Virus record (IMG/VR): IMGVR_UViG_3300036901_000143
Location: 1-22,520 of that record
Reading direction: 5' to 3' (one strand)
Source: a virus
Length of the DNA: 22,520 bases
Part shown: piece by piece, positions 1 to 19,705 of the stretch
How positions within the stretch are numbered: the first letter of the stretch is position 1
How the letters are laid out: each line of letters opens with the position of its first letter
Made by a program: the position numbers and the translations under genes
The notes under the pieces: generated by a model
Told to the model about the DNA's origin: nothing
Seen by the model: only the letters and a program-made list of their open reading frames with translations
The model's database searches: none

Positions 1-639
1 ATGAGGGGAATACAAGGGCCCCTGAAGGGCTTTCCAACCATCAGCGTCGCAGACTGGGGAGACGGAATCAGATATTGCGGGCCGGCGCGCGACTTGATTG
101 CCGCTGGCGTGGCTGCCCCTGAAATGCTCGCGCCCGGGCCAAGCAAGCGTCGGGACTGTGATGGTGATGAATTCCGGATTGAACGGTACTGGAGGCATAC
201 GCGGGGGAAACAAATCCCATGCATTCGGCTCATCCGCTCTAAGCCGGAGTGCCGCATGCGCAGCCTGCCCGGGGCCGACGCGGTAATGGCGGAGCGCAAG
301 GAGGGCGAACGATGGCGCGCCAAATCGGCGGAGGTGACTCGCGTCCGTGCGATTGTGTCAGCGGTTGCTCTCGGCCTGGACTTCGCCGCGGCTCCTGACT
401 CGGCCGCCTGCGCGCAAATGCTCGAGGAGATCGCCGAGGAGGCTGACGCGCTTCCGGCAGAAACGTTGGTTCCCGTCCTAAGCGTGCGGATTGGGTGTCT
501 CATGTATTGGGTAAAGCATGGGCTTCCGCTGCCCGCGAACCTGCCCGACACCTTGCGCGCGACCGCCGTGCTGTCGGCCATGGGAGTCCACATAGCAGCC
601 CTGGTGCAGCGGCAAGCCCTAGCCGAGAAGCGGGCATGA
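1..639 (+). CDS. Hypothetical protein, first gene of a coupled trio
   Basis: A 212-residue protein opening with ATG at the first base of the window, so its own promoter is not visible. I do not recognise the family. Residues about 55-80 are basic and polar and include ERYWRHTRGK. Residues about 105-205 are Ala/Leu-rich and probably helical. No signal peptide or clear membrane segment is seen. The stop overlaps the next start as ATGA, so the two are probably translationally coupled. Small coupled genes of this kind are common in prophage and island accessory operons; that context is inference. An internal ATG at 124 could be the true start, but it has no better ribosome binding site. Confidence 0.6.
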   Translation: MRGIQGPLKGFPTISVADWGDGIRYCGPARDLIAAGVAAPEMLAPGPSKRRDCDGDEFRIERYWRHTRGKQIPCIRLIRSKPECRMRSLPGADAVMAERKEGERWRAKSAEVTRVRAIVSAVALGLDFAAAPDSAACAQMLEEIAEEADALPAETLVPVLSVRIGCLMYWVKHGLPLPANLPDTLRATAVLSAMGVHIAALVQRQALAEKRA

Positions 640-905
640 GCAACATCATTCCGTTCCGCGATCCCGACGCCCCGCTCGATGGCGCCGAGCGCAAGGCGGC
701 AATCAAGGCTTACTGGAAGGCGGCCGAGGCGGTCGCAGCGTACACGGTCGCCAAGGCCTTCAGCGCAGCGTGCAGGCAGCCAGGTTGCGGCAGGTTGGGC
801 TGTGAGGACGCACTGCCGCTGTTCGTCACCGCCTTCCGGCGCGAACTGAGCAAGATGGACTATTGCCTGCATCAGCGATCCGGGCAGACGATAGAACGCG
901 AATGA
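636..905 (+). CDS. Small hypothetical protein, second gene of a coupled trio
   Basis: An 89-residue protein. The ATG at 636 was chosen because it overlaps the previous stop (ATGA) and follows a purine-rich GAGAAG. It begins MSNIIPFRDPD, an opening often seen in small phage and island proteins. The middle is Ala-rich and probably helical. Two cysteine pairs (CRQPGCGRLGC) might bind metal but do not form a classic zinc-ribbon spacing. It ends in another ATGA overlap with the next gene, making a three-gene unit. Function unknown. Confidence 0.6.
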   Translation: MSNIIPFRDPDAPLDGAERKAAIKAYWKAAEAVAAYTVAKAFSAACRQPGCGRLGCEDALPLFVTAFRRELSKMDYCLHQRSGQTIERE

Positions 906-1249
906 CGCCGCGGCCAAACTCGAGGCTTCGCCCGCGCAACCGTGCCGGGCGTTGCTTCGAACTATCGGGACGCTATCAGATCGATGACCCGACATGGACG
1001 CTTGTGCACGGCACCCTCTACTCGGCCGAGTTCGACATCTGCTACGGGCATGCATGGCTCAAGCGCGACGGCTGGGTATATGACGCGGTTCAGAACGAGA
1101 CCTTCTGCGCCGAGGAATATGCAACCCGGTTCGGTGCGGAGGAAATCGGGAGTTTCAGTTATCGTGAGGCCGCCCGAGCCGTGCTTGACTCTGGGCGCTG
1201 GGGCCCGTGGGTCACATACGACAAAAACGTCATGGTCCGCGCGGGCTGA
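902..1249 (+). CDS. Hypothetical protein with a possible Cys-His-Asp triad
   Basis: A 115-residue protein starting at the ATG of the ATGA overlap. An upstream in-frame start at 863 lies inside the previous gene and is less likely. After a basic N-terminus, GRCFE places Cys18. GHAWLKRDGWVYD then places His50 and Asp61 on what look like consecutive strands. The order and spacing Cys, about 32, His, about 11, Asp resemble small papain- or transglutaminase-like folds. This is a pattern resemblance only, and no family was identified. It is the last gene of the coupled trio and converges on the minus-strand gene ending at 1308. Confidence 0.6.
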   Translation: MTPRPNSRLRPRNRAGRCFELSGRYQIDDPTWTLVHGTLYSAEFDICYGHAWLKRDGWVYDAVQNETFCAEEYATRFGAEEIGSFSYREAARAVLDSGRWGPWVTYDKNVMVRAG

Positions 1250-1307
1250 TTCGCCTGATCACCTAGGGGCGGCGCCTGCGGCCGCCATGCGCGACCTGGC
1301 GAAGCGA

Positions 1308-1703
1308 TCAAGGCGGTCCCGTCCACCACTTGGCGATGTAGCTGCCCTTCGGGTGCTCTGGATTGACCGACTCGCCCAGGACGTCCTCGACGATATCCTG
1401 AAAGGGCGGCAGAGACCACCTTGCATTCTTATTCATCTTCAAGCAGCTTTCGATCTTATCGGCCTGATCGGCCGTGACGTTTGAGACGGTCAGGCAAATC
1501 CAACGGTCGCCAGTAACCGCGACATAGCTCGCCATTCGAGATGGGGCGTGGTAGAACTTTTTGTGCGATGGCTCTTTCCCTGATTCCCGCGGTGTACTCA
1601 GAAATTGCCGAATCTCATCGGCGTTGCGGATCATCGCCAGAAAGGAATCATTTAGGAGCTTTTCGGCCGGCCTCGCCTGTAAGCCTAGAATGGTGCTACC
1701 CAT
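1308..1703 (-). CDS. Hypothetical soluble protein
   Basis: A 131-residue protein. The ATG at 1703 is preceded by GGAGGAG four bases away, a strong ribosome binding site, so the upstream in-frame start at 1754 was rejected. No membrane segment or signal peptide is visible. The central part (YVAVTGDRWICLTV) looks like paired beta strands and the flanks look helical. Family not recognised. It is convergent with the trio on its left and divergent from the gene at 1823, and the 119 bases between hold short GC-rich palindromes such as CCTGGCCAGG (1724-1733). Confidence 0.6.
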   Translation of the reverse strand: MGSTILGLQARPAEKLLNDSFLAMIRNADEIRQFLSTPRESGKEPSHKKFYHAPSRMASYVAVTGDRWICLTVSNVTADQADKIESCLKMNKNARWSLPPFQDIVEDVLGESVNPEHPKGSYIAKWWTGPP

Positions 1704-1822
1704 GGCACTCCTCCATCGATTGCCCTGGCCAGGTCCCGCTCGGTGTACCACCACCGGCCGGGGCCGCTTCCCGATTGTGCCACGTTACGCGGTCCGCTCC
1801 GCATTGAGTGAGGAGAATGCCG

Positions 1823-2083
1823 ATGAACCAGCCAGAATCCGTTCAAACGTCGTGCGAGCAGCTGCGCAAGTTCCTCAATTTGGGCCCGCTGGACGACGTA
1901 GGGGCCGCCAACGAAGCGGAGAGGCTGGTGACAAAGATCAGCGAACGCGCCCCTCCTGGATCTGATGCAGCACGGTTGGCAGTCGAGCTCACGGGGCAAC
2001 TGCATGGTTCGTTCACCGGACAGGCCCCAAGCAACCGTGAGGCGATCGCGAGGATGCGCGGCGAGCTGGCCAGCCCTCATTGA
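1823..2083 (+). CDS. Small hypothetical helical protein
   Basis: An 86-residue protein. The ATG at 1823 was chosen because AGGAG (1811-1815) lies seven bases upstream. The GTG at 1808 and ATG at 1817 in the same frame are too far upstream of or too close to that site. The sequence is rich in Ala, Glu, Leu and Arg and probably all helical, with no cysteine cluster or membrane segment. Not recognised. Its end overlaps the end of a tiny minus-strand ORF (2077-2160). Confidence 0.55.
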   Translation: MNQPESVQTSCEQLRKFLNLGPLDDVGAANEAERLVTKISERAPPGSDAARLAVELTGQLHGSFTGQAPSNREAIARMRGELASPH

Positions 2084-2160
2084 TCCATTTCAGTGAAAAC
2101 GATTCGATCTCCCGACGCTGCGCGGGTGCTGACCCGCATATACTCGATTACTTCTGACAT
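2077..2160 (-). CDS. Candidate 27-residue micro-ORF
   Basis: A 27-codon ORF whose ATG at 2160 is preceded by GGGAGGG about eight bases away. A longer in-frame ORF (start 2307) exists, but it would cross the ribosome binding site and start of the plus-strand gene at 2272. The peptide includes YMRVST, which echoes the YVRVST catalytic motif at the N-terminus of serine resolvases. It could be a tiny remnant of one, but 27 residues cannot prove it. Low confidence. Confidence 0.25.
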   Translation of the reverse strand: MSEVIEYMRVSTRAASGDRIVFTEMDQ

Positions 2161-2271
2161 CGTGACGCCCTCCCATGGATGGCGTCGGGATAGGCCGTGT
2201 CCTTGCGCCGGAAATTGTGGTTGTAGCCGCCGTCGGGCCAACGTGCGCGACGACCTCGGCAGGAGGATCTC

Positions 2272-2439
2272 ATGACTCTGGAGCAGGCGCTGAAGCTCAT
2301 ACAGCAAACCCGTTCATTCATCGGCACTATCTATTCCAACGAAGTGGTGTTGGACGGTAAGTTCAAGCCGGAAGAACTCGAGGCAATTTTATTCGTGATG
2401 CGAAATCGGCCTGCTCCGCCGTACGAGACGGCAGGGTGA
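2272..2439 (+). CDS. Small ORF (55 residues) with a perfect AGGAGG site
   Basis: A 55-codon ORF from ATG 2272 to TGA 2439, preceded by AGGAGG (2261-2266) five bases before the start. The peptide begins MTLEQALKLIQQTRSF and is amphipathic, with two probable helices around a short VVLDGKFKP turn and a Pro-rich tail. No domain is recognised. The ideal ribosome binding site and helical composition make translation likely. A longer overlapping ORF in another frame (from 2175) has no such site. Confidence 0.5.
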   Translation: MTLEQALKLIQQTRSFIGTIYSNEVVLDGKFKPEELEAILFVMRNRPAPPYETAG

Positions 2440-2489
2440 CTATAGCCATCGCGGTGCTAACGCAGTCCCGTTTACGCGCTATTGGTCGT

Positions 2490-2506
2490 GCCCGTCGGTG
2501 GGCTTT
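2490..2506 (+). terminator. Weak candidate terminator
   Basis: GCCC, a six-base loop and GGGC followed by TTT lie 50 bases after the 55-residue ORF. The stem is only four pairs and the T-run is short, so this is a marginal rho-independent terminator. The rest of 2440-2647 shows no gene or clear promoter. Confidence 0.2.
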
Positions 2507-2647
2507 CTGTGCCGGCTTCTCAAGGCGTTATCCGCTGATGACGGCAATGCGGCTGTGCAGCACGCGGCCGTGTAGGCGGCCAGCTAGATCGAAATAAACT
2601 GTGATCCGCGTCGGGGACGGGAATACCAGGGCCGTTAAAGTTGGACC

Positions 2648-4072
2648 TTGGAAACGAACCTACCCCCTGGCGTCGCACCCAGCCCCATAAGGGGTGCGAC
2701 TGCGGTTCCCGATAAGGAACACGCGCGGCTGCTCGCGCTGCATTCCTATGACATCCTAGATACGCCTGCGGAAGAAGTATTCGACGAGTTTGCGCGATTG
2801 GCGGCTTCGATCGTAGGCACGCCGATAGGCTTGGTCAGCCTTGTTGATGGCAATCGTCAATGGTTCAAGGCCAAAGTCGGTCTGGAGGTGTCCGAGACCC
2901 CGCGCGACGTGGCATTTTGTGCTCACGCCATCGGCGGCACTGATGTTTTCGTGATTCCGAATGCCTTCGAGGACGAGCGCTTTAGCGGCAATCCTCTAGT
3001 CACTGGCGGACCGAAAATCCGCTTTTACGCCGGCGCCCCACTGATTACCTCTGGAGGCGACGCGCTCGGCACGCTGTGCGTCATTGACTATGTCCCTCGT
3101 CACATCACCCCGGAGCAGCAGGCCGCCCTGCAGATTCTAAGTCGCCATGTCATGGCGCAGCTGGAATTGCGCAGACGTCTCAACGACTTCACGCGCGGCG
3201 ACGCGCCCCGAAAAAAGGCAATCGCAGCGTTGCGCTGTGCTCTTGATGTTGGCCAATTCGTACTGCATTACCAGCCCAAAGTGGATGTGCGGACGAGCCG
3301 TATCATGGGGCTGGAAGCTCTCATCCGTTGGAATTGCCCCGGAAAGGGAATCATTCCGCCAGCGCGCTTTATCCCGCTGCTGGAAGAAAGTGGGCTGATC
3401 GTTGAGGTGGGCAGCTGGGTGATGCAACAGGCGATAAGCGATTATCGTGACTGGAAATCGAAGGGGCTGACTGTGCCTACCATTGCCGTGAATGTCTCCC
3501 CTCACCAGCTGCGCAACCCAGGCTTCATTGGACAGCTCGAGCACGCGTTGGGCACCGAGGGGCCAAGGCGCAGTCCCTTGGACATAGAGATTACCGAAGG
3601 TGTCCTGCTGGAGAAGACGGAAGAGGTCATCGGAAAGCTGCACAAGACCCGCTGCATGGGCGTGGGAGTGGCCATTGATGACTTCGGCACCGGATACTCT
3701 TCCCTGCGATACCTGGCGCACCTGCCGATAGACACGCTGAAGATCGATCGCTCGTTCGTCATCGCCATGACCGACGATGCCGATGACATGGCAATAGTCT
3801 CTAGCATCATCGCGCTCGCTCACGGGCTTGACCTCAATGTTGTGGCGGAGGGCGTCGAGACTGATGAGCAGCGAAAACTGCTACGGCTGTTGCGGTGCGA
3901 TCAAATGCAAGGGTATCTCTTCAGTCGCCCGGTCGCTAAAGACAAGCTCGAAGAGATGCTCAGAGCTGAGAGCAACACGATCACGCAGCGCTCGCTGCAG
4001 CTCGAGGACCCCGCAGGAGCAGAGTTTGCCGAGCGCCGCCTCCCCCGACGCAAGTCCATGCCAGGCGGTTGA
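2648..4072 (+). CDS. GAF-EAL cyclic di-GMP phosphodiesterase
   Basis: A 474-residue cytoplasmic protein predicted to hydrolyse c-di-GMP to pGpG. Residues about 40-175 form a GAF sensor domain (VSLVDGNRQWF, DVAFCAHAI, GTLCVIDYVPR). Residues about 190-440 form an EAL domain. The family's metal-binding and catalytic positions are present: E223-A-L, N282 in NVSP, E314 in EITE, D344-D345 in DDFGTGYSS, K365 in LKIDRSF, E401 in AEGVET, and QGYLFSRP. An active enzyme is expected. No membrane segment is seen. The only usable start is TTG at 2648, because TAA lies in frame at 2636; its ribosome binding site is weak, suggesting low expression. The diguanylate cyclase downstream is an obvious functional partner, but 0.6 kb apart and probably transcribed separately. 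Confidence 0.9.
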   Translation: METNLPPGVAPSPIRGATAVPDKEHARLLALHSYDILDTPAEEVFDEFARLAASIVGTPIGLVSLVDGNRQWFKAKVGLEVSETPRDVAFCAHAIGGTDVFVIPNAFEDERFSGNPLVTGGPKIRFYAGAPLITSGGDALGTLCVIDYVPRHITPEQQAALQILSRHVMAQLELRRRLNDFTRGDAPRKKAIAALRCALDVGQFVLHYQPKVDVRTSRIMGLEALIRWNCPGKGIIPPARFIPLLEESGLIVEVGSWVMQQAISDYRDWKSKGLTVPTIAVNVSPHQLRNPGFIGQLEHALGTEGPRRSPLDIEITEGVLLEKTEEVIGKLHKTRCMGVGVAIDDFGTGYSSLRYLAHLPIDTLKIDRSFVIAMTDDADDMAIVSSIIALAHGLDLNVVAEGVETDEQRKLLRLLRCDQMQGYLFSRPVAKDKLEEMLRAESNTITQRSLQLEDPAGAEFAERRLPRRKSMPGG

Positions 4073-4668
4073 ATACAGGTATGCATATATCGTGGCCCAT
4101 AGTACCAGGGCCCGCCATGTGTCAGGAATGCTCTGCCTCCCGGCTGATTCGATCGAGCGCTTACGGCATGGCCGGGATCGGCATCGCGGCATACAACCGG
4201 AGGAAATAGCCTCAACCCAAGCCCCGACGGCTTAGTCGTGATGCCCCGGGCTCTCGGTTAGGTGTGCCGCGCCATAGCCCGGTAACTGACCAGGATTCAG
4301 ACTTGCGTCCAAGCTGCTGCCGGTGGCAGCTGAGATCGGATGTGGAAATCGGGTCACAGTTGAGATCGCGCCCGCTTTTGATAATGTGCGCCGCGGCCAA
4401 ATATGGAACTGTGAAAACGTTGTTGACGCATTGCGGGGGCAAGCTCCCGATTGCGCTCAATTATTCCGGACGTGGAAGTCGCATCTAAGAACTTTCCGGC
4501 GTTCCCACAAATCCTAAAACTCGACGACTCGCGGACCACGACTTTGTGACGTAGGTCTCATAGAACACTCAAAGAGCGCGTTGTCACTCACGCTGCAAAT
4601 ACAACCGCCGCGCGAGCATTGGGAACCCTGTTTTCGGCGGCGTTGCGGTGAGGCCTACAAGGTGCGAG
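4073..4668 (+). other. Gene-poor spacer between the two c-di-GMP genes
   Basis: About 600 bases with only short ORFs lacking ribosome binding sites and protein-like composition. It holds a pair of related repeats (4327-4369) that look like the end of a decayed insertion element. I saw no GEMM-type c-di-GMP riboswitch core and no good terminator. It presumably contains the promoter of the cyclase gene, which I cannot place. Confidence 0.4.
4327..4369. repeat. Two 13-base direct repeats, possible IS relic
   Basis: CAGCTGAGATCGG (4327-4339) recurs as CAGTTGAGATCGC (4357-4369), 30 bases apart, with the related AAATCGGGTCAC between. Multiple short related repeats of this type occur near the ends of IS21-like elements from GC-rich proteobacteria. 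No transposase remains here. The insertion-element origin is inferred from memory of such termini. Confidence 0.3.
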
Positions 4669-5778
4669 ATGACTTCTACTAGGCAAAGAGCGATGGAGTC
4701 ACGCGACGTAAGCTGCGACACCGGCAGTCGTGAATCGCCGACGCAGCTCGTGCGGCAGATTTTGAGACACCGTGACCCTGTCTCCCAACCAGCCAACGGC
4801 GAGGAAGACATCGCGGCGACCGTGTCGGTCATGCTCCGCGTACAGCCCCCTTCAAAGGCCTTATTGATCGTTGATGCAGAGCTTTGTGAACGACTCCGTC
4901 TCGCGCTCCAAGAGGCGGGCTTTGAGGTTACGATCGCACCTACCAAGGATCGAGCTATCGACGCCTTGGCATCTCACCACCACACTTTGGCGGTGACTGA
5001 TCGTCTTGAGTTTGTACGGAGCTTACGCGCACTCGGAACATCGCGGGTGTTGCAGATTATTCAGATCACCAGCGGTCTCGACGGAGAACTCGAAGCGGCG
5101 CTTAGCTGCGGCGCAGATGAGTGCCTTAGCGGCAAAGCGCCTGACATGCTCCTTCAGGCGCGATTCTCGGCGGCGCGGCGGATGAGTGACCTGGAGTCCG
5201 CGCTGCGCGCTACGTTCATTGTCGGCCACCGTCTGGCGACGACGGACCAGTTAACAGGAGTCGCCAACCGTCGATTCTACGCGAAACACTATCCCCGAGA
5301 GATTTCTCGCGCGGCGCGCTATGGGCATGCCGTTTCGGTCGCGATGTGTGACATAGACCACTTCAAGCGCGCCAACGACGAGTACGGCCATGCCGCCGGA
5401 GATATGATCCTGCGGGAATGTGCGCAGCGGATGCAGCAGTGCTTGCACCGAGGTTCGGATTGGATGGCGCGCGTAGGCGGGGATGAATTCGCGGTAGTCT
5501 TTCCGGAGACGGCCATTGACCGGGCGCTCGATATCTGTCGCAAGATGCGCGACGCGGTTTCGAGCACACCGTTTGTCGGCGACGGGATGCAGGTGAGTCT
5601 CACAGCGAGCTTCGGACTGGCTTCGCTCTGGGGTGCACCTAAAGACGCCAAGAGGCTTGCCGAACGCCTGCTCAGTGCTGCCGATCAAGCACTATATCAA
5701 CGCAAGGCGGCGGGCCGAAATGGCGTCACCGCGACGAAATTGCAGTTCGGGTCAGATAACTCGACGCAACCTGCCTGA
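4669..5778 (+). CDS. Diguanylate cyclase, degenerate receiver plus GGDEF
   Basis: A 369-residue protein predicted to make c-di-GMP from two GTP. Residues about 62-170 are a receiver-like domain: D69 in LLIVDAE, possible phospho-acceptor D111 in LAVTD, and K156 after CGADECLSG. One of the usual paired N-terminal acids is replaced by Ala and the MP after the acceptor is missing, so phosphorylation is uncertain. Residues about 185-360 are a GGDEF domain with DIDHFK, intact GGDEF at 270-274, and an intact inhibitory site RGSD (261-264) five residues before it. The enzyme should be active and product-inhibited. The ATG at 4669 has AAGG six bases upstream; GTG 4648 and ATG 4693 are alternatives. 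Confidence 0.88.
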   Translation: MTSTRQRAMESRDVSCDTGSRESPTQLVRQILRHRDPVSQPANGEEDIAATVSVMLRVQPPSKALLIVDAELCERLRLALQEAGFEVTIAPTKDRAIDALASHHHTLAVTDRLEFVRSLRALGTSRVLQIIQITSGLDGELEAALSCGADECLSGKAPDMLLQARFSAARRMSDLESALRATFIVGHRLATTDQLTGVANRRFYAKHYPREISRAARYGHAVSVAMCDIDHFKRANDEYGHAAGDMILRECAQRMQQCLHRGSDWMARVGGDEFAVVFPETAIDRALDICRKMRDAVSSTPFVGDGMQVSLTASFGLASLWGAPKDAKRLAERLLSAADQALYQRKAAGRNGVTATKLQFGSDNSTQPA

Positions 5779-5898
5779 GAGGAATAGGAGAGCATAAAGG
5801 GCTCGAGCTTCAAGTAATGCGCTGCGCGCGCCGCGCACCACGTACCAGCGCGGCTCGCTGGTCGGCTCCAGGGGGTCGAAGACGTTGCGGCGAACCAT
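5752..5898 (-). CDS. Candidate 48-residue protein
   Basis: A 48-codon ORF from ATG 5898 to TGA 5752, antisense to the last 27 bases of the cyclase gene. The peptide reads like a real protein: it opens MVRRNVFDPLEPTSEPRWYV and continues into a Leu/Ala-rich helix ending RLRRVI. The ribosome binding site is weak. It lies 93 bases downstream of the unknown operon and could be its last gene, or a fragment of a decayed gene. Family not recognised. Confidence 0.35.
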   Translation of the reverse strand: MVRRNVFDPLEPTSEPRWYVVRGARSALLEARALYALLFLSGRLRRVI

Positions 5899-5991
5899 GC
5901 TCGACCGTAGCGGGGTGGTCGGCCGACCATCTATCCAGTAGTCCGCGGTGCAGCAAGCTGTACGACGTTTTTTAAGCCAGTCCGATTCGCT

Positions 5992-6546
5992 TCAGTTCAT
6001 CGGCGTTTCGACATCTTTCTTTTGGGTTCGATCCCGCGTTACAAAGAAAGCGACGATTGCGGTCTGCAGCCGCTCGCGACCCTCATCGGAAAGCGAGGCA
6101 ACGCGCTTAAACGAATCGACAAAATCACGCGCTAGCGGACAGATAAAGCGCAGGTCAACACACGACTCCGGAATCTCCCCGATCGCTGGTAGGTACATGT
6201 ATGCAAGATGAGCTTGGTTGCGCACCTGATCTTGGACCTTGGGGTCAAGCGCTTCCAGTGGACTGAGCGGTGCAAAAAGGAATCGCGTGGTTCTATTCGG
6301 CTTATCGATCGCGCAGTCATGCGAGACCACGATACCGTGGCCCATTCGATAGTGAGCTAGGCAGTGCTTGGGCTGCGTCACACCGACGTCGCCTCCTTCC
6401 GATGGGATCCACATGACGCTGACGTTTTTCGCCGAACCCTTTGTGAGATGAGTCAGTGGTTCCTTGGGTGTGCTGAATGGCACACCGGAGAACACGTCGC
6501 CCTGGCTGATATCCGCGCGAAGCGCGGCCGCATACCAGCCGGTCAC
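5992..6546 (-). CDS. Unknown operon, third gene (SHDC-motif protein)
   Basis: A 184-residue protein, not recognised. The GTG at 6546 sits one base after the stop of the preceding gene, implying coupled translation. ORF-compatible sequence continues further upstream but overlaps that gene. Visible landmarks are DISQGDVF (12-19), GHGIVVSHDCAI (69-80), RFLFAPLSPLEAL (88-100) and YLPAIGEIPESCVDL (118-132), giving an alternating strand pattern. The Ser-His-x-Cys cluster (75-78) is the best candidate for a functional or metal-binding site. No signal peptide or membrane segment is seen. It always reads as part of the three-gene unit, so the proteins probably act together. Confidence 0.7.
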   Translation of the reverse strand: MTGWYAAALRADISQGDVFSGVPFSTPKEPLTHLTKGSAKNVSVMWIPSEGGDVGVTQPKHCLAHYRMGHGIVVSHDCAIDKPNRTTRFLFAPLSPLEALDPKVQDQVRNQAHLAYMYLPAIGEIPESCVDLRFICPLARDFVDSFKRVASLSDEGRERLQTAIVAFFVTRDRTQKKDVETPMN

Positions 6547-6547
6547 G

Positions 6548-6919
6548 TTAGATGAAGGGCGGAATCTCCGGATCCCCCGCCTCTTCAATCGGCTTCCACG
6601 AGCGCATCTCGCCAGCGAGATCCGTCCAGAATTGATAGGGGGAACCAACGATCAAATCTCGGCCAATGGGCTGCTGCAAAAGCTGGGCGATTGCGCGCCC
6701 GGACGCTATTGGAGGTGCCCCCGATGCCGCAGTCGCCGTGGTAGCGTCGATGATGGATGCGCCTGCGCTTACCAGGAGCGTGCTCGCCAAGGTCAACTGA
6801 GCTGGCCAGTTCCTGTCACGCTTTTTGGTGACCCACTGCGTTATGGCCTTGACGTGCCGCGTGAGACCTTCAACGGTCCAGGCTCCGATGTCGAAGGCCT
6901 CGAAGTCAATCATGTTCAT
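6548..6919 (-). CDS. Unknown operon, second gene
   Basis: A 123-residue protein, not recognised. The ATG at 6919 is preceded by GGAG eight bases away and overlaps the end of the first gene by 14 bases. The N-terminal 45 residues are amphipathic (WTVEGLTRHVKAITQWVTKK). Residues about 41-75 are small and hydrophobic (LTLASTLLVSAGASII), possibly a single membrane or buried helix. The C-terminus contains PYQFWTDLAGEMRSW. It is probably a small partner of the flanking products. Confidence 0.65.
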   Translation of the reverse strand: MNMIDFEAFDIGAWTVEGLTRHVKAITQWVTKKRDRNWPAQLTLASTLLVSAGASIIDATTATAASGAPPIASGRAIAQLLQQPIGRDLIVGSPYQFWTDLAGEMRSWKPIEEAGDPEIPPFI

Positions 6920-7565
6920 TTGTAATCTCCGCGTCTTCCGCGGGTAGTGTGGACTTTGGTAGCTGTGGCGCGATCTGCCGAAGCTTTTCGAGAAGATCCA
7001 GCATCAACGAACTCGGCAGGTCGACACGTACAACAGGATCGACCGCGAGTTTTTTCGAGTGCGCAGCAGACATCATTGCGAATGGCGAAGCCCGGAAAAA
7101 ATCAAGGCATGCCTCATCGTTTGACATTGCGCTCATAACCATGCTCGCGCTGAGAGCGACGGTTTGAGTCGGCTCCTCGGCAATTTTTATACCAGCCTGG
7201 GCATTGATTCCCGCAATCTTTGCCGCTTGATCGAATGGCTGATTCATCCCATCCAGCGAAGAAAGAAAGCGCCTTACGCAGCTGGGGCTCATTTGGATAA
7301 TTAATAACGATCGCAGCTCGCCTTTCCCGATGCGCTCCTGCCCGAACAGAAAGGTCACGGCGCTAGGCTTGTACCTAACATCGCAGGTCTCAGCTAAATA
7401 TTTCCGTTCCGGCACGGGCGCCGATCTCATGTCGATGGCAAGCGCCTGCACCGTCTGACCATTGACGTGAACCGTACGGTTCTGGATCAAATCGACAGTG
7501 GGCCCCTCTCCCGGTCGATTGAGCGGGATGGCGACGACTTGCCGCGATGAGATTCCTTTAGCCAT
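6906..7565 (-). CDS. Unknown operon, first gene (possible DUF3467-like repeats)
   Basis: A 219-residue soluble protein. Two stretches share a layout. One is residues about 62-105, a strand VTFLFGQ followed by LLIIQMSPSCVRRFLSSL. The other is residues about 150-200, EACLDFFRASPF followed by VVRVDLPSSLMLDLLEKL. The pattern of LDF strand, then strand, then a serine or proline helix cap and an amphipathic helix weakly recalls DUF3467 proteins. That is only a resemblance. The ATG at 7565 has no clear Shine-Dalgarno site, and a TATAAA lies only five bases upstream, so the message may be leaderless. It heads the operon 7565 to 5992. Confidence 0.65.
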   Translation of the reverse strand: MAKGISSRQVVAIPLNRPGEGPTVDLIQNRTVHVNGQTVQALAIDMRSAPVPERKYLAETCDVRYKPSAVTFLFGQERIGKGELRSLLIIQMSPSCVRRFLSSLDGMNQPFDQAAKIAGINAQAGIKIAEEPTQTVALSASMVMSAMSNDEACLDFFRASPFAMMSAAHSKKLAVDPVVRVDLPSSLMLDLLEKLRQIAPQLPKSTLPAEDAEITNEHD

Positions 7566-7677
7566 GGCACTTTATAGTCTATCTGATAGTACCTTAATGG
7601 GTAGATCTTGCCGCATTTTCAAGAGGTTGCGCACATTTTAATAGCATCGATCGAATTATGTTTAGGTCATCTGCGGC
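7566..7677 (-). promoter_or_regulatory. AT-rich upstream region of the unknown operon
   Basis: This gap between the recombinase end and the operon start is more AT-rich than its surroundings. On the minus strand it contains TATAAA (7576-7571) immediately before the start codon, and TTGAAA (7622-7617). The spacing does not make a clean sigma-70 promoter. CTATCTGATAG (7579-7589) is a perfect 11-base palindrome next to the TATAAA and could be an operator. Confidence 0.3.
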
Positions 7678-8364
7678 CTATCTGAGGCCGAGGCGCCTGG
7701 CAGCCTTCAGCAGCGACGGCGCATGCCACCGGCCGCCGCCAGGGGATTCGATACCCCGCGCGTTGAGAGCTTCGGCCGCCTGACGCAGCGATGCACCGCC
7801 CTTGAGCGCGAACTCGATCTGCGGTTGCAGCGCCTTGATGCGCTCCATGGCGGCCATCTGGTTGGCTTTGGCACCACTGGCTGCGATCTGCCGCACCTGG
7901 CTCTTATTCCGAGCTGACATGCCGAGCTTCGTACCCCGCGCTTTCGCCGCAGCCAGCCCGGCCTTCGTGCGGGCGGAGATCATTCCACGCTCCTTCTCTG
8001 CCAAGGCTGCGTAGAGGTGGAGCACGAACGGATCCGGTTGGCGGCCGAGGTCGGCAACTACGAACTCGACCCGGTGCGTCATCAATCCGGAGATGAAATG
8101 CACGTCCCTCGAGAGGCGATCGAGCTTGGCGACCATGACAGGGGACTTTGTCTGGCGTGCTGCTTTGAGGGCGGCGGCGAGCTGCGGGCGACGGTCCATT
8201 GCATCCGAACCCGATCCCGTCTCGATCTCTTCGTAGACCTGGGTGATATCGAGGCCTTCGGCTTCGGCAAACCGGGCGATCGCTGCCCGCTGTGCTTCCA
8301 GCCCGAGCCCGGACCGACCCTGGGCTGAAGTGCTGACCCGTACATATCCGATTGCTGCTGTCAT
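7678..8364 (-). CDS. Serine recombinase, resolvase/invertase family
   Basis: A 228-residue site-specific recombinase acting on DNA through a serine nucleophile. The N-terminus has IGYVRVST with catalytic Ser11. [12 protein letters not shown] (77-87) carries the conserved arginines, and [16 protein letters not shown] (122-137) matches the long E-helix. The C-terminal part (185-225, [15 protein letters not shown]) is a helix-turn-helix for site binding. The ATG at 8364 follows GGGGA; the longer in-frame start at 8439 has no ribosome binding site. Length is normal for the small-recombinase group. Its target sites were not identified. The family includes phage and plasmid resolvases and DNA invertases, and it may have moved the neighbouring cargo. 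Confidence 0.88.
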
Positions 8365-8448
8365 TTTGAGCGTCCCCGATCTGTATGGGGACAACTTTAG
8401 ACCAGCAATCAGCCTTTGTAAATGCCTCTTGACGCTCATTGAGTCTTA

Positions 8449-9210
8449 TTAACAGAGTGGCCAAAGCAGGATCAGGGCAAGGATGGCCATGCCAATCGGC
8501 AACAACGCATCGAGTAGAAGCCACCGGACGTTCTGGCTGGTTAGAAAATGGCGATATGCCTGGTCGAATCTATCCAAGCTGGCTGGGATTCGAAGTGACC
8601 GCAGGGTTTTTCCCATGCTCTCGATTGCCCCCTTCAGCTCATTCGCGGCCTGTCTTACTTGGCCCAGTAGTGCAGTGGCATTGTCTACATTGATCGGATT
8701 GCCGGTCAGGCACGCTTCGCGAATAGCGGCTTCTTGCGCAGCAAGCATATCGATCAGAGGCCCAACTCCCTTGGAAAGGTTCCCGACACGCGGCGCCGAC
8801 TGGCCCCACCAATTCGCCAGCGTCGATTGCCGGGGATCGCGCGGATAGTCAGCTTCCTCATTCCCGAAAATGCCAGCAGTAACGAAGGCGACGCGAGTCC
8901 CTGTGAGCCGCAGTCGCCATTCGGCGAAGCTCTCCCATGCCATCCAGATGAAATGGACAAGCAGATAAGCGACGGCGAGGCCCAGAGCGTCGTGCACAGC
9001 ACGATCGGTGAGCCCGGTCAGGCTGAATCCGAATACCGTCGCCTGCGTGTCGACGCGCAATTTGAACCACACGACGCCAATCGCGACAAGAGACACAACG
9101 AGCAGCTGTGTGCGGGCGCGCCAGGCGCGATCGGTCAATCCGACTGCGATCGGCTCCCCGAGAATCTTCTGAACTGCCTCAATGTCCTTCGCCGGTGGCC
9201 TGACCCACAT
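8449..9210 (-). CDS. Membrane protein, three predicted helices
   Basis: A 253-residue inner-membrane protein of unknown function. Likely membrane helices lie at about 35-50 (LLVVSLVAIGVVWFKL), 75-92 (ALGLAVAYLLVHFIWMAW) and 230-251 (LLLDALLPIGMAILALILL). Between the second and third is a soluble region of about 130 residues with a probable coiled coil at 175-210. The ATG at 9210 has GGGAG six bases upstream. It lies 84 bases upstream of the recombinase on the same strand, so the two may be co-transcribed. This layout is seen in some phage exclusion and defence membrane proteins, but no family was recognised. Confidence 0.7.
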   Translation of the reverse strand: MWVRPPAKDIEAVQKILGEPIAVGLTDRAWRARTQLLVVSLVAIGVVWFKLRVDTQATVFGFSLTGLTDRAVHDALGLAVAYLLVHFIWMAWESFAEWRLRLTGTRVAFVTAGIFGNEEADYPRDPRQSTLANWWGQSAPRVGNLSKGVGPLIDMLAAQEAAIREACLTGNPINVDNATALLGQVRQAANELKGAIESMGKTLRSLRIPASLDRFDQAYRHFLTSQNVRWLLLDALLPIGMAILALILLWPLC

Positions 9211-9282
9211 ATCGTTCTCCCAACACCCTTCCTTTGATTACCCTCCAGCGCAGCGCGCACCCCGTCAGCTTGCTCTGCACCG

Positions 9283-9308
9283 TCCTCCATGGGGTTGGTT
9301 TTCCCAGA
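9283..9308 (+). repeat. CCATGGGG repeat, diverged copy 1
   Basis: TCCTCCATGGGGTTGGTTTT followed by CCCAGA shares the core CCATGGGGTT..TTTT with two better-matched copies at 9555-9585 and 9617-9650, in the same orientation. Confidence 0.4.
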
Positions 9309-9340
9309 GGCCTGGGCGAGTTAGAAGTGATGGCACAACA

Positions 9341-9370
9341 CCTCGGCACAGTACGTCGCCTCGGCACAGT
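9341..9370. repeat. Tandem CCTCGGCACAGT repeats
   Basis: CCTCGGCACAGT occurs at 9341-9352 and again, identical, at 9359-9370, an 18-base period. A partial GGCACA core also occurs at 9332-9337. An AT-rich TATATATT (9383-9390) follows. Spacing of under two helical turns suggests a binding site for a dimeric protein, but no partner is known. Confidence 0.5.
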
Positions 9371-9397
9371 CGGCTTTTACCCTATATATTCCTACGA

Positions 9398-9415
9398 CAA
9401 AGGCCGTAGCCTTTG
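9398..9415. repeat. Perfect hairpin CAAAGGC-CGTA-GCCTTTG
   Basis: A 7-base-pair inverted repeat with a four-base loop. No T-run follows on either strand, so it is not a typical rho-independent terminator. Confidence 0.45.
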
Positions 9416-9554
9416 CTAGTCACGGAAGTTTGGCAAATGGGACCGCTGCCTGATGTGCCACCACCACGGTCAATTATGCTCCTCCGCCGCGCCCCGCTCC
9501 CGCGGGCGCTATCACGTCGATCTCGCCGTAGGCGCTGCCTTAGCGGCTTGACAG

Positions 9555-9585
9555 GGCCTTCCATGGGGTTGTTTCGCAAAATGCG
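9555..9585 (+). repeat. CCATGGGG repeat, copy 2
   Basis: CTTCCATGGGGTT-GTTTCGCAAAAT matches copy 3 over about 26 positions, with one gap and one substitution. It straddles the stop codon of the zinc-finger gene's downstream flank. Confidence 0.55.
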
Positions 9586-9586
9586 T

Positions 9587-9970
9587 CTATCGCGCCATCG
9601 CGGCCGGCAGATAGACCTCTTCCATGGGGTTTGTTTTGCAAAATAGGGCGCCGGCCGATTGAGAGCGAGTTGAAGCCGCGCGCACGGCCGGTGTGCGCCC
9701 GCGCACCACCGCCTCCAGTTCAATCTGCCGGAATATCTCGACCACCATGCCTGGCATGACCAATAACGCGTTGTCGCGGTCCGTGGCCGAAAAACGGAGC
9801 GTGACCGATGCATCGCCCTGGCTGCACACCTTGACCGATCTCACGGTCCCACGGAGCGCTCCGTCACCTCGGGTCACGGCGTAGTGCGCCATCCGGCAGC
9901 GCTTTCTGCAATACACCTGGTGCGGCCGACGCGGTTCGAATTCTCTGCGACATTGCGGGCAGGCGCTCAT
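9587..9970 (-). CDS. Zinc-finger protein with repeat-derived tail
   Basis: A 127-residue protein. The N-terminus has Cys4-x2-Cys7-x13-Cys21-x3-Cys25 followed by an Arg-rich helix, a small treble-clef or zinc-knuckle motif likely to bind nucleic acid. Residues about 40-95 appear to be beta-rich. Residues about 108-118 (ALFCKTNPMEE) are encoded by the CCATGGGG repeat, so the original stop may have been lost and the tail extended. The ribosome binding site is weak. The same cysteine spacing recurs in the phage-region protein at 18882-19247. It follows the gene at 10011 by 40 bases on the same strand. Confidence 0.7.
   Translation of the reverse strand: MSACPQCRREFEPRRPHQVYCRKRCRMAHYAVTRGDGALRGTVRSVKVCSQGDASVTLRFSATDRDNALLVMPGMVVEIFRQIELEAVVRGRTPAVRAASTRSQSAGALFCKTNPMEEVYLPAAMAR
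9617..9650 (+). repeat. CCATGGGG repeat, copy 3 (inside coding sequence)
   Basis: CTTCCATGGGGTTTGTTTTG followed by CAAAAT is the longest copy. It lies within the 3' end of the zinc-finger gene and encodes its CKTNPMEE tail. Confidence 0.55.
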
Positions 9971-10010
9971 GTCGCGAGCGTGTCCGGAATACTACCAATT
10001 GCCACCGTCC

Positions 10011-10229
10011 TCATGCCTCGTAGCCGACACGGCCCAGCGCTTGCCTCTGATCGCGCAGCAGCCCGGCCAATCGACGCATGAATGGCCGATCGCCGCCCTT
10101 GTACGCGTTCCTGGACACCCGCGTCTTACCCTTGGCCGTCACCGGTCCGGTTGATCGAAGCCACGGCCGCCACCGGTGAATCAGCGCTGCCTGTCGAGCC
10201 CGCCGTTCCGCACTCCAACCGCTCCGCAT
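10011..10229 (-). CDS. Small conserved basic protein (RRWRPWxxSTGP family)
   Basis: A 72-residue, Arg-rich protein. The layout of an ERRARQAALI helix, then RWRPWLRSTGP, then KGKTRVSRNA matches a small uncharacterised family I recall from prophages and islands of Burkholderiales and Xanthomonadales. The ATG at 10229 has GGAG seven bases upstream. It overlaps the end of the upstream gene by 104 bases in another frame, an arrangement typical of this pair. Its basic character suggests nucleic-acid contact, but function is unknown. Confidence 0.75.
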   Translation of the reverse strand: MRSGWSAERRARQAALIHRWRPWLRSTGPVTAKGKTRVSRNAYKGGDRPFMRRLAGLLRDQRQALGRVGYEA

Positions 10230-10935
10230 TCTGCTGCTCCAATAGTTTGCTTGGCTCGCTTTCGATTTCCCGCGCGCGCGCGCGCGTGGGTTCGTCGGTC
10301 GCGGGCCCGTTGTTCACTTGCTGCGGGCCGGTGGCGATGTTGGCCTGGCCTGCGCGCACGAAGGTTGACTGGCGGGGATGTTTCAGCTCGTTCAGAGTTT
10401 CGAGCGTCATGCGGCACTGATTCTGCGCCTTCATCGCCATCGAAAATAATCGTTCACTGCGTTGCAGAAATTCCTGATTCAGTACGCGCTGGGCCATATT
10501 GGTGAAAATTGATTGGAGGGCTACCGCCTGGCCCATCAGCATCGCCTCACACTGCCGCATATCTCCGGCATGGACCTGCGCTATGGAATCCTTCAGCCCC
10601 TCGCTCAGCGCCCATAAATTCTGTTCACCGAACGACCCCTTGGCGAACGGCCTCACTACTAACGCAGCGTTGTCGCTAGATTTTATTGTCATTTCGGCGC
10701 GGGCAAATGCCTTCGCCTTCTCGAGCGCCTCAACCGGCGCGGCAAAGGTGGCTATCGCCCGCGCTGGTTGCGATGCGGCGACCGCCGGCGCAGATGTCGG
10801 TAGATCCGATTGCGCACTATGTTCACCGGCGCTGATTGCTCCGGCGCGCGCCGCTGGGCTGCTGCGCGCAATCTCTCCTGCCTTGGACGTTCGGCGAGCT
10901 GTCGCAGCTCCACGCTGCTTTCCCGTCGGTTTCAC
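10126..10935 (-). CDS. Conserved hypothetical protein of the phage cargo pair
   Basis: A 269-residue soluble protein. GTG 10935 was chosen because AGGAGAGG lies ten bases upstream. An in-frame ATG at 10968, which overlaps the spike gene's stop as ATGA, is the alternative. Residues 1-60 are a basic Ala/Ser-rich linker. Residues about 85-195 are helical with SIFTNMAQRVLNQEFLQR and MAMKAQNQCRMTLETL. ANIATGPQQVNNG follows, then a polar tail. The QCRxTLETL and QQVNNG signatures match a family of unknown function often found beside the 72-residue protein downstream. A CG-repeat tract encodes the TRARARE stretch. Confidence 0.75.
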   Translation of the reverse strand: MKPTGKQRGAATARRTSKAGEIARSSPAARAGAISAGEHSAQSDLPTSAPAVAASQPARAIATFAAPVEALEKAKAFARAEMTIKSSDNAALVVRPFAKGSFGEQNLWALSEGLKDSIAQVHAGDMRQCEAMLMGQAVALQSIFTNMAQRVLNQEFLQRSERLFSMAMKAQNQCRMTLETLNELKHPRQSTFVRAGQANIATGPQQVNNGPATDEPTRARAREIESEPSKLLEQQNAERLECGTAGSTGSADSPVAAVASINRTGDGQG

Positions 10936-10964
10936 GGCTTGATGTCCTCTCCTGAGGCTGGCGC

Positions 10965-11573
10965 TCATCCGGTTGGCCCTCCGGTATTGCCGTCGCCAGG
11001 CATGACGCCACCGTGGTCATGCGCGTTCGCGCTGCTCATCACATCGGTGACAAGGTCCGCGCAGGTGACGTTCTGGCTCACGTCCAGCGCTCCGATGACG
11101 TTTATGTCGCCGGTGTGATTCCAAGTATTGGCGGCCGATGTGATCGTGCCGTCGCCGTTGAGTACGACGCTGGCCCCCTGGCCGTCCGACACGGTGAGCT
11201 TGCCGTCGTTGGTGAGCTTCAGGAACTGCCCATTCACATGTACCAGCCAGAACTCGCCCGACGGCACCGTCAGGGGCCGGTCTTGGTTGTTGTAGTGCCT
11301 GGCCTGCACGTACCCAGTGTTGAGCTTGCCATCGATGAAGACGACGGTGACCATCTCGTTAATTGATGGCGGGCAGTACATGCCCCAACCGTTCCCAACC
11401 CAATTCGAATCAATTGGCAACCAGCCTGTGGGGCTGCCGTCCGGCTGCAATGCAACCTTGGCCATGTACCGCGTCGGATCGTAGTTTGTGACGAGCCCGA
11501 TCCGGCTGACCACGGTATGCGCCGCGGCGCGCAGCGCCTGCAGGCGCATGGCATTGTCTAAGACAGCTCTCAC
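10965..11573 (-). CDS. Baseplate spike protein, gpV / Mu gp45-like
   Basis: A 202-residue protein of the contractile-tail puncturing device. Residues about 20-97 fit the OB-fold that caps the hub. Residues about 105-175 are regular short strands (NGQFLKLTNDGKLTV, SVVLNGDGTI) typical of the trimeric beta-helix. The tip has AHDHGG with His185-x-His187, which in P2 gpV and Mu gp45 binds iron at the apex. GTG 11573 overlaps the hub gene's stop as GTGA. In phages, baseplate wedge genes usually follow; here they are absent. Confidence 0.88.
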   Translation of the reverse strand: MRAVLDNAMRLQALRAAAHTVVSRIGLVTNYDPTRYMAKVALQPDGSPTGWLPIDSNWVGNGWGMYCPPSINEMVTVVFIDGKLNTGYVQARHYNNQDRPLTVPSGEFWLVHVNGQFLKLTNDGKLTVSDGQGASVVLNGDGTITSAANTWNHTGDINVIGALDVSQNVTCADLVTDVMSSANAHDHGGVMPGDGNTGGPTG

Positions 11574-12757
11574 GCAGCACCCACGTCCGAGGATTCGACG
11601 GCGAGGTTGGGAGTGAAGTTCTGCGCCTCCACCGTCATCGCGTAGCCTTCCTCGACACTCAGTGTCCTGGTGACGCTGCGCGGGTAGTAAGTCTGATCGT
11701 AGGCGGTGCCGGTGCCGTTCACGTTTATGATCACGCCGCGAGGTGCGAGCACCCCATCGGCCGGAAGCCTCGCAGTCAATTTCATCGCGTGCGAGGTGAT
11801 GAGCTTGTATTGGTTGATCGCGAAGTTTTCCACCGCAACAGTCGACATGTCCGCTGGCAGCCAGTAGGTGTAGAGCGTCGTCGGTCCGTAGGCGGTCGCC
11901 TTTCCCGGCGTGATCGCTTTCGGCGCCGTTGGGTAGTAGCGCGTAACAGACGCCTTATTGGCGTGCCCCGGGCTCATTGCCTTGACCGTGACTCCCTTCA
12001 CGATGGTGAGCGAGCGGCTGAAGGTCAGATCGACAACGCTTGCGGTCGGATAGTCCACGTCCTTGGTCGGCGGCGTCCACGTGATCTGGTACGTATCTGG
12101 ATCGCCGCTCTCGGGCTGAAAGTATAGGCCCTGCTGTTCTACATAGCAGATGAATCCTGCCTGGCGCGCGAGCATCGCCAGCAGATCCCAGTCGCTGCCC
12201 TGCGTCTGGATGAGCTCGACGTCGCCGTTAGGTTGAGTCGTGCCAACTCTGCCCGTGGTCGCCGTGACGACAGGTATCAGATTGTGCTGGCTGGCGAGGT
12301 CGGTCGCGATGTAGCTCGCCGACTGATTCGTATAGTCCCGCGGCAACTTGGCATCGATGAGAGCACCCGTCAGATCGCGCCCGGTGAGCGTTATCGTGCG
12401 CAGCTTCGGGTTGTACTCGATGTCATCGACCCGGCCATAGATGAGCGAGCTCATTTCGCTCGGATCGGGTTTGTCGGGATTCGATACGCGAACGGCCGCC
12501 AGGATCTCTACGAAAGTGTCAGTCGCGATCTCGGAGAACCATGTGGCGTCGTACAAAGCATCCGGGGCAACCATTTGGGTGAGCGCGGTTGCCGAATAGG
12601 TCACACGGAACGTGTCCGCCTCAAAATAGGTATTGTTGGTGACGCTGAAATCGATCCACCCGGGCACGTTGTTGCCGTTGATCTTCACCGCGCCACGCGG
12701 TTGCCTGACAGTGGATCCAGCTGGAGGGTAGTTTATCTGCGCGCTCGAGGCGATCAT
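11570..12757 (-). CDS. Baseplate hub protein, gpD / Mu gp44-like
   Basis: A 395-residue late-control-D-type hub protein that joins the tail tube to the spike. Features include RGAVKINGNNVPGWIDF near the start, YGRVDDIEYNPKLRTITLTG in the middle (about 105-130), and the characteristic QTQGSDWDLLAMLARQAGF followed by YVEQQGLYF (about 180-215). ATG 12757 overlaps the tape measure stop as TGATG, with GGGGGAT just upstream, so the in-frame start at 12781 was not used. Its position between tape measure and spike matches Mu and related myophages. Confidence 0.88.
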   Translation of the reverse strand: MIASSAQINYPPAGSTVRQPRGAVKINGNNVPGWIDFSVTNNTYFEADTFRVTYSATALTQMVAPDALYDATWFSEIATDTFVEILAAVRVSNPDKPDPSEMSSLIYGRVDDIEYNPKLRTITLTGRDLTGALIDAKLPRDYTNQSASYIATDLASQHNLIPVVTATTGRVGTTQPNGDVELIQTQGSDWDLLAMLARQAGFICYVEQQGLYFQPESGDPDTYQITWTPPTKDVDYPTASVVDLTFSRSLTIVKGVTVKAMSPGHANKASVTRYYPTAPKAITPGKATAYGPTTLYTYWLPADMSTVAVENFAINQYKLITSHAMKLTARLPADGVLAPRGVIINVNGTGTAYDQTYYPRSVTRTLSVEEGYAMTVEAQNFTPNLAVESSDVGAA

Positions 12758-14703
12758 CAGAATCCCCCGCCCGCCGGCCACGGTGCCAGGGTGCCATCGA
12801 AGGACATCAGTCCGGTCTGTGGCGCGGCGGAGGCCTTGGCCTGCTGCTGGGTAACCATCGTCGTCAGGCCATTGCGATCAAGTTTGTTGACGACGGTAAC
12901 GTTGATGGGGGCCCGCGCGGCCATCGTAGGCAGGGATTTGAGCCACGCATCAATGAGTTTCGCCTCCGGACTGTTCACCGAGATTATGGGGTTGCGCGGA
13001 TCGGGTTTCGGCCAGGCCGATGGGCCGGTCGGATTGGGCGAGCCAGGTGTATCCCAGCTTCCCGTGGCGCCACCTCCCCACTGTCCGGTCGCGCCGCTGC
13101 GCTGCTTGGGATGCATAAGGTTCGTCAACCATTCCCACTTCTGCTGCATCCAATCGAGCAGCCCACTGACACCCGATCGAATAGCCTCCCAGGCCGCCTT
13201 GAGCTTCGGCCCGATGACATCCCAATGCTTCCAGAGCTCGTAGGCGGCAAACCCGATGAGAGCAATCACGCCGCCGACCACGCCCAGTGGGATCAATGCG
13301 CGGGCGATTATCGGGCCGATGCCTAGGAACTTGATGAGTCCGGCGGTCATCAGCACCTTACCCAGCACGGAGAAGGCGATCGCCACGCCGCCCAGCCCGA
13401 AGACAATCCCATTTGTCAGGTCCGGGTGGTCCTGCATCCATTGCGACACGTTGTCTAGCGTGTCGGCGAACTTGATCATGTACGGAATCAGCCGCGGCAG
13501 GATCTTGAAGCCGATGGTGGCCAGGATGTTCTGCCACTGATTGTGCAACGCCTGCTCGGCGAGCTGCGGATTGGTTTGCAGCAGCTTCTGGTACGTGTCG
13601 TAGCTGTTGCCGCCACTCTCGATGAGCTTGCGATCGCGCTCGAACTGGGGCCTCTTGACAAGCAATGTGTAGAGCGCCCACTGCGCATTCGACTGATTCG
13701 TCATGGCCGAAACCGTCTGCAGCAGACTGAGCTTGTGAGCTGCAGCGTAGCGCTCGATCGCCGGCGCGTACTTCTCCGCCCACTTGAGCGGATTCTCCGA
13801 CTCGAGCTGCGCACCCGCGACGCCCCCGGGTCGAATCTGCCAGGTCCCCGTGGCATTTCTCACGACATCGCTCGGCTTGATGAGGCCCATCTCCTCCCAC
13901 ACTGGAATCGCGGACTTGGGTATCACGCCCTGCACAATCACCTTCGACAGCGCCCTCAGAGCGGTCCCCGCCGTCGAGGTATTGCCCATCATTCCGGAGC
14001 CGGCTTTCACTTCCTGCATCAGCGTCGGCAGGTAGTCGTAGGTAAATTCATCGCTCCAGCTAAGCGCGCTGTTCTTGGCGTATTTGAGGGTCATCAGGTA
14101 ATCGTGAACGTCGAGCGTGCCGCCCATCCCCATGAGCGTGCGGCCCATGAGGTCTGCATTACGCTGCAGCGATGCACCCGACATCAGGCCGCTCGTGCGA
14201 AGGTCAACGGCCTTCACGACCTCGAAGGCGACGTTGTCCTGCGCTTTTCCGGTGAGAGCCTCGAGCGTCGCCTTGATTCGCTGCACTGTCGGCAGGATCC
14301 CGTAGGTCTCATTCAGGCGATCGGGGCCCAGCACGGTGCGCAGCTCTCGGATCGACTTCAAATTGTCGGCCGCGGTGCTGGTAATGACATCCCGCGAAGT
14401 CTTCCAGGCCGCCGCGGTGGCTTCTGCGATGTCCTTCTGCGTCATGCCGGCAGCGTTCATCAGCGACAGCTGGCGGGTGTACTCCTTGCTCGCATCGACG
14501 GACTTCTCCAGGAAGCCGAGGATCCCCGAGCCGATCTTCTCCATGCCGTAGCCGACGGCGACGAGCTTCAGGGCTGAGAGCTTACCCTTGAGATTGTCGG
14601 CGGCTTTGCTGGCCACGAACAGGTCGCCGGCGAGCAGGCGTAGGCCCTGGCTCGCAAGATTTGCGACTGTCAGCTTGATTGCTACAGAATAGTCGAATGA
14701 CAT
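12757..14703 (-). CDS. Tail tape measure protein
   Basis: A 648-residue protein that sets tail length and is ejected with the DNA. The N-terminal 400 residues are largely helical with many Ala/Leu/Lys repeats. A hydrophobic region at about 432-488 (GIVFGLGGVAIAFSVLG, LGVVGGVIALIGFAA) fits the membrane segments usual in tape measures. A Gly/Pro/Trp-rich linker follows at about 535-575. ATG 14703 has GAGGAG eight bases upstream. By the usual 0.15 nm per residue the tail would be about 97 nm. It lies between the chaperones and the hub, as in other phages. Confidence 0.9.
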   Translation of the reverse strand: MSFDYSVAIKLTVANLASQGLRLLAGDLFVASKAADNLKGKLSALKLVAVGYGMEKIGSGILGFLEKSVDASKEYTRQLSLMNAAGMTQKDIAEATAAAWKTSRDVITSTAADNLKSIRELRTVLGPDRLNETYGILPTVQRIKATLEALTGKAQDNVAFEVVKAVDLRTSGLMSGASLQRNADLMGRTLMGMGGTLDVHDYLMTLKYAKNSALSWSDEFTYDYLPTLMQEVKAGSGMMGNTSTAGTALRALSKVIVQGVIPKSAIPVWEEMGLIKPSDVVRNATGTWQIRPGGVAGAQLESENPLKWAEKYAPAIERYAAAHKLSLLQTVSAMTNQSNAQWALYTLLVKRPQFERDRKLIESGGNSYDTYQKLLQTNPQLAEQALHNQWQNILATIGFKILPRLIPYMIKFADTLDNVSQWMQDHPDLTNGIVFGLGGVAIAFSVLGKVLMTAGLIKFLGIGPIIARALIPLGVVGGVIALIGFAAYELWKHWDVIGPKLKAAWEAIRSGVSGLLDWMQQKWEWLTNLMHPKQRSGATGQWGGGATGSWDTPGSPNPTGPSAWPKPDPRNPIISVNSPEAKLIDAWLKSLPTMAARAPINVTVVNKLDRNGLTTMVTQQQAKASAAPQTGLMSFDGTLAPWPAGGGF

Positions 14704-19686: not shown

Positions 19687-19705
19687 GCAGAGAGGAGTTG
19701 GGCGA

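Follow-up and report, generated by a model that had tools for sequence, protein, structure and literature searches.

Organization of the locus

The window analysed here, i.e. the whole stretch of 22,520 bases, is a virus record with phage tail genes (baseplate, tail protein and tape measure), a helicase-like gene and, at one prophage end, a tyrosine integrase gene (22520-21123). Over positions 1-12992 it shares 99.9% identity with a MAG contig of Gammaproteobacteria palsa_1209 except for one 27-base gap, the stretch at 3302-3328 being present in the window and missing from the otherwise 99.9% identical MAG copy. The operon studied consists of ORF1 (P0003, 219 aa, 6906..7565), ORF2 (P0002, 123 aa, 6548..6919) and ORF3 (P0001, 184 aa, GTG start, 5992..6546), all on the minus strand and in this order of transcription. 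ORF1 and ORF2 overlap by 14 bases and ORF2 and ORF3 are separated by a single base. The three coupled same-strand genes of 219, 123 and 184 codons were thus found exactly where the initial annotation had placed them.

The gap upstream of ORF1 (7566..7677, minus strand) is presumed to be the promoter region. With 41% GC compared to 53-64% in the surrounding 500-base bins it is AT-rich, as had been noted before, and it contains one weak sigma-70-like match (TAAACA-18-TAAAAT, 7664 to 7635), which taken alone is not above chance. The palindrome previously reported for this region is at chance level as well, the best perfect one, CTATCTGATAG, being equalled in 103 of 500 shuffles.

Next to the gap, a gene with a Resolvase domain (8439-7678, E=2e-26) accounts for the serine recombinase described beside the operon. 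This recombinase is incidental to the three-gene unit and lies outside of it, since it is missing from relatives of the operon, which are flanked by tyrosine integrases, tRNA genes or plain chromosomal DNA. In L026, the longer copy of a viral contig (L005) with a related triad, only a 27% match to the recombinase was detected, on the strand opposite to the triad and more than 5 kb away from it. Upstream of the recombinase, a minus-strand gene at 8449-9210 encodes a 253-aa protein with hydrophobic stretches recognizable by eye and without a convincing family match. Directly adjoining the triad on the opposite strand are GAF-EAL and GGDEF cyclic-di-GMP genes (2648-4072 and 4648-5778), which probably belong to the host or else are unusual cargo of the prophage. 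Close to the integrase, at the opposite prophage end, the plus-strand gene at 19658-20449 encodes a protein with a HEPN_AbiU2 domain (PF18734, E=3e-14) and is a candidate abortive-infection gene; its presence in the same prophage fits a defence-loaded cargo and proves nothing on the ORF1-ORF2-ORF3 operon. An 82-base stretch 3′ of the triad (window 5833-5912; L026 10095-10175) is 83% identical between the window and L026, and in L005/L026 it adjoins what appears by eye to be a broken SRAP (SOS-associated peptidase) gene. In another lineage (L021), an SRAP gene (PF02586) is located immediately upstream of the triad.

Coding status of the three genes

On the different viral contig L005 all three genes are present in the same order, with protein identities of 64, 65 and 68% to the window. 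Between the two loci third codon positions are least conserved (0.41-0.52) and second positions reach 0.82-0.85, and the dN/dS ratios (NG86) are 0.126 for ORF1, 0.218 for ORF2 and 0.069 for ORF3. The codon-position pattern and the dN/dS values indicate that the three proteins are under purifying selection; ORF1, ORF2 and ORF3 are genuine coding genes. None of them was matched in Pfam, NCBIfam or PADLOC searches, and the PADLOC-DB 2.0.0 models gave zero matches for the window proteins and for representatives of their relatives. The earlier statement that none of the proteins is recognizable holds for these collections and fails for ORF3, which matches phrog_4575, a family of unknown function (E=1e-6).

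Distribution and genomic sites of the cassette

Relatives were collected via phrog_4575 and a profile built from its members. ORF3 relatives are patchily distributed, occurring in 8 of the 398 genomes sampled from the host phylum, and were further found on additional viral contigs, in the Pseudomonas phages VW-6S and Dobby, in a prophage of P. aeruginosa PACL and on a Phocaeicola plasmid. No close relatives of P0001, P0003 or the L005 ORF1 were present in phage and plasmid records. Not counting the copy in L024, which is cut by the contig end, the order ORF1-ORF2-ORF3 is kept in all readable lineages (13/13), with adjacent genes overlapping or spaced by no more than about 16 bases, so that the co-occurrence proposed as a check by the initial annotation was observed throughout. 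Single homologues with housekeeping roles, which the same annotation had named as evidence against its reading, did not occur for ORF3.

The cassette occupies sites on phages, on elements linked to integrases and, as isolated insertions, flanked by housekeeping genes. In Dobby it is located between the integrase and portal genes, adjoining the latter, and this portal gene flanks the cos-proximal hotspot known from P2, where the cos/portal region has been validated as a hotspot of anti-phage systems (PMC9122126). In VW-6S the flanking genes are those of the CI repressor and the integrase, and in the P. aeruginosa PACL prophage the cassette is situated just inside the 27-bp attL. In three further lineages (L019, L032 and L036) a tyrosine integrase gene precedes it, and in L019 it also lies behind tRNA genes. 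The cassettes of L023 and L044 adjoin tRNA genes, that of L023 being flanked by peptidase M16 and trpE-like genes, and the cassette of L020 adjoins lptF/lptG-type genes. These sites match the distribution of accessory mobile cassettes. No defence island was observed near the chromosomal copies examined, and the clustering with known defence genes that had been suggested as a test was not found, save for the AbiU2-like gene in the same prophage.

ORF3 is predicted to carry a toxin fold

An AlphaFold2 model of ORF3, built with 13 sequences, shows a well-defined barrel and a C-terminal helix, with 68 core residues at a pLDDT of at least 90 and low confidence at residues 27-63. In a Foldseek comparison with the PDB, the first 50 matches were all MazF, CcdB and CptN toxins, with S. 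aureus MazF at the top (E=4.2e-4, probability 1.00, TM 0.72 on the target); the probability was 1.00 for MazF as well as for CcdB. Among viral models, a phage PemK-like protein was the best match. ORF3 is therefore predicted from its model to carry the MazF/CcdB/ToxN toxin fold.

A sequence search of solved structures yielded nothing meaningful for ORF3, and PF02452 (MazF/PemK) matched neither P0001 at E values up to 1 nor the ORF3 of L032 at E values up to 10. The profile alignment between ORF3 and PemK/MazF, although weak, is collinear along the fold (P=0.004 and 0.026 in the two query orders, compared to 0.62 for SecB): a GD in the first strand is followed by a VLS/VVS strand, a P-L/P-I strand end and the final helix. 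The P value of 0.004 is suggestive of a remote kinship with PF02452. The positions of the catalytic Arg (RPxxV) and Thr (PxT) of MazF appear unconserved among ORF3 relatives in this alignment, which is itself weak. The residues conserved in the ORF3 family are instead QGD in the first strand (residues 15-17) and S-[N/H]-x-C, with which the second long strand ends. The latter corresponds to SHDC at residues 75-78 and is part of the GIVVSHDC motif (residues 71-78) highlighted in the initial annotation; within the family S75 and C78 hardly vary, and H76 is confined to the clade of the window and replaced by N elsewhere. From the topology of an antiparallel barrel, as opposed to coordinates, both motifs should lie close together at the pole that lies across the barrel from the MazF RNase site. 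Many RNA-acting toxins are basic; the pI of ORF3 proteins is mostly 5-7 and thus not basic. As the canonical Arg and Thr are apparently unconserved, the active site gives no prediction of toxicity for ORF3. Relatives of ORF3 also differ from MazF/PemK in their frequent N-terminal extension and in belonging to an operon of three genes rather than two.

ORF2 is a small acidic protein with one hydrophobic stretch

ORF2 of the window is acidic (pI 5.0), has no DNA-binding domain and contains a single hydrophobic stretch at about residues 42-60. Its relatives are always about 97-134 aa long with one such stretch, and the pI is 4.2-5.7 in 11 of the 12 aligned. The stretch comprises 15-19 residues in every aligned ORF2, the remaining sequence being highly variable. 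It is Ala/Ser/Gly-rich and marginal for a membrane span (mean Kyte-Doolittle values of 0.8-1.75 over 19 residues). The best-conserved part of the protein is not this stretch but a C-terminal segment, which is typically present and in its commonest type reads FYxxLxxxQxPLGxExxxVLxxNLWDLYxD.

The first gene is exchangeable

In most relatives the slot of ORF1 is held by TIGR04255 proteins, a family of unknown function like phrog_4575 and the usual first gene accompanying ORF3. A first gene of this type was assigned in ten lineages, two by NCBIfam, three genomes via the family model and the rest by alignment. The window ORF1 falls outside this family: it has no family match in Pfam, phrog, PADLOC or NCBIfam searches and does not match TIGR04255.1, and ORF1 proteins of the window type have no detectable similarity to TIGR04255 in profile comparison. 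The first gene of L021 represents a third type, likewise without detectable similarity to TIGR04255. The first-gene slot is thus exchanged between TIGR04255, the window type (window and L005) and the third type.

Conversely, of the TIGR04255 genes inspected at 17 loci, three are at the head of the ORF2-ORF3 core and others head different coupled genes. At L105 (2292-3751), TIGR04255 is followed by an HTH_3 protein, the HTH_3 type of middle protein being a feature of many antitoxins, and by a protein of 271 aa whose QGA and IVVTHAC motifs recall ORF3. A relationship of this third protein to ORF3 was dismissed, as the two have only the motif IVVTHACTVVYEN in common, which is not significant. In L102, L109 and L110, TIGR04255 heads another pair, a protein of about 165 aa (WDG[YC]-x-A near the middle) followed by one of 93-137 aa, which constitutes a second recurring three-gene layout of unknown function. 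The association of TIGR04255 with various partners, together with the varied types of ORF1, indicates that first genes and downstream pairs have been swapped in both directions.

Several candidate identities for ORF1 were rejected. Comparison by hhalign of the alignments of both ORF1 types with 26 SecB sequences revealed no similarity that would make ORF1 or TIGR04255 a SecB-like chaperone, and ORF1 resembles neither SecB nor any known chaperone or sensor and has no Pfam match. A resemblance to DUF3467 suspected by eye found no support when the complete protein and its halves were scanned with Pfam, and 56 genomes of the host class contained no DUF3467. A weak match of the window-type ORF1 in one genome (G712) contains internal stops and was considered noise. 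The AlphaFold2 model of ORF1, built from 2 sequences, was unusable (pLDDT 36.6). The two similar strand-helix blocks previously perceived in ORF1 did not withstand profile comparison of its halves, in which 99 of 100 shuffles scored at least as high as the real sequence.

Discussion

The layout recurs on phages and mobile elements that are unrelated, which is suggestive of a three-part system, either toxin-antitoxin or anti-phage, that has so far been uncharacterised. For the initial assumption of a defence or toxin-type system, the toxin half gains support from the predicted MazF/CcdB fold of ORF3 and from the fixed co-occurrence of the genes on mobile elements, but the defence half is not accompanied by clustering with known defence genes, apart from the AbiU2-like gene of the same prophage. 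In the best-supported reading, which we consider somewhat probable, the cassette would be a tripartite module of the toxin-antitoxin-like type that includes a regulatory third part and is carried as prophage cargo; that it serves prophage maintenance or the exclusion of other phages belongs to this reading and is held with the same guarded preference.

ORF3 would be a MazF/CcdB-like toxin that stops growth when free, its site probably being other than the MazF RNase site and located around QGD and S-[N/H]-x-C. ORF2 would be the cognate antitoxin, whose conserved C-terminal segment could bind the toxin and whose hydrophobic stretch might render it unstable or partner-dependent. ORF1 would act as an exchangeable third component, i.e. 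a regulator, sensor or chaperone, which keeps the ORF2-ORF3 pair inactive until a cue, e.g. an infecting second phage, triggers its release, following the logic of toxin-antitoxin-chaperone systems, cf. CmdTAC. Toxicity, the antitoxin and regulator roles, the trigger and the benefit to the prophage are thus what we infer for this module.

The SecB-like chaperones of toxin-antitoxin-chaperone systems accompany various antitoxin families (PMC5105189), and the chaperone of CmdTAC serves as a sensor of a phage capsid protein (PMC11618068). HigBA1-SecB-TA of M. tuberculosis and CmdTAC (PMC5105189, PMC11618068) likewise consist of three coupled genes on mobile DNA, with a third component that occurs with varied toxin-antitoxin partners and a small partner with a hydrophobic segment. 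Three co-conserved genes and the reuse of the third component with other partners, which characterize such systems, were both found here. In contrast to them, ORF1 and TIGR04255 have no profile similarity to SecB, the gene order would be regulator-antitoxin-toxin, and in ORF2 the hydrophobic stretch does not constitute a C-terminal addiction tail. Since no kinship with SecB was found at the sequence level for ORF1 or TIGR04255, the resemblance would be one of working and not of membership.

A farther-reaching version can be put forward only tentatively. The cassettes may represent an undescribed widespread defence family with an ORF2-ORF3 core, a MazF-fold effector with a new active site formed by QGD and S-[N/H]-x-C, and exchangeable first genes (TIGR04255, window type and others) as phage sensors, the TIGR04255 sensors also driving several unrelated effector pairs.

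It is unlikely that the genes are neither toxin nor defence genes but serve lysogenic conversion or regulation, with the MazF-like fold reused for binding, e.g. in a phage or host regulator. The missing PADLOC matches and the seemingly lost catalytic residues would agree with this, but the patchy occurrence (8/398 genomes), the fixed coupling, the exchange of modules and the insertions beside integrases, tRNA genes, portal or att sites form the pattern of selfish or defence modules and not that of regulators. A sensor-effector defence operon, with ORF2 killing via a membrane-inserted hydrophobic segment and ORF3 acting as a recognition or enzymatic switch instead of the toxin, is quite improbable. 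The persistence of the 15-19 residue stretch in otherwise highly variable ORF2 proteins and the apparently unconserved MazF catalytic residues of ORF3 speak for such an arrangement; against it, the stretch is only marginally hydrophobic and Ala/Ser/Gly-rich, and the strongest conservation of ORF2 lies in the C-terminal segment. Alternatively, ORF3 might be an mRNA interferase of the orthodox MazEF type that cuts RNA like MazF, with ORF2 as its MazE and an additional gene in the operon. This would account for the predicted-fold match and the collinear profile alignment, but is very improbable given that the Arg and Thr positions appear unconserved in the weak profile alignment and that PF02452 gives no match.

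A conserved, mobile three-gene module with an effector of predicted toxin fold is new. Its presence on the culturable Pseudomonas phages Dobby and VW-6S makes toxicity and superinfection exclusion directly testable. If the toxin-antitoxin-like reading holds true, it would provide a function for the uncharacterised families phrog_4575 and TIGR04255 and would add a three-part toxin module whose toxin fold has seemingly lost the MazF RNase site.
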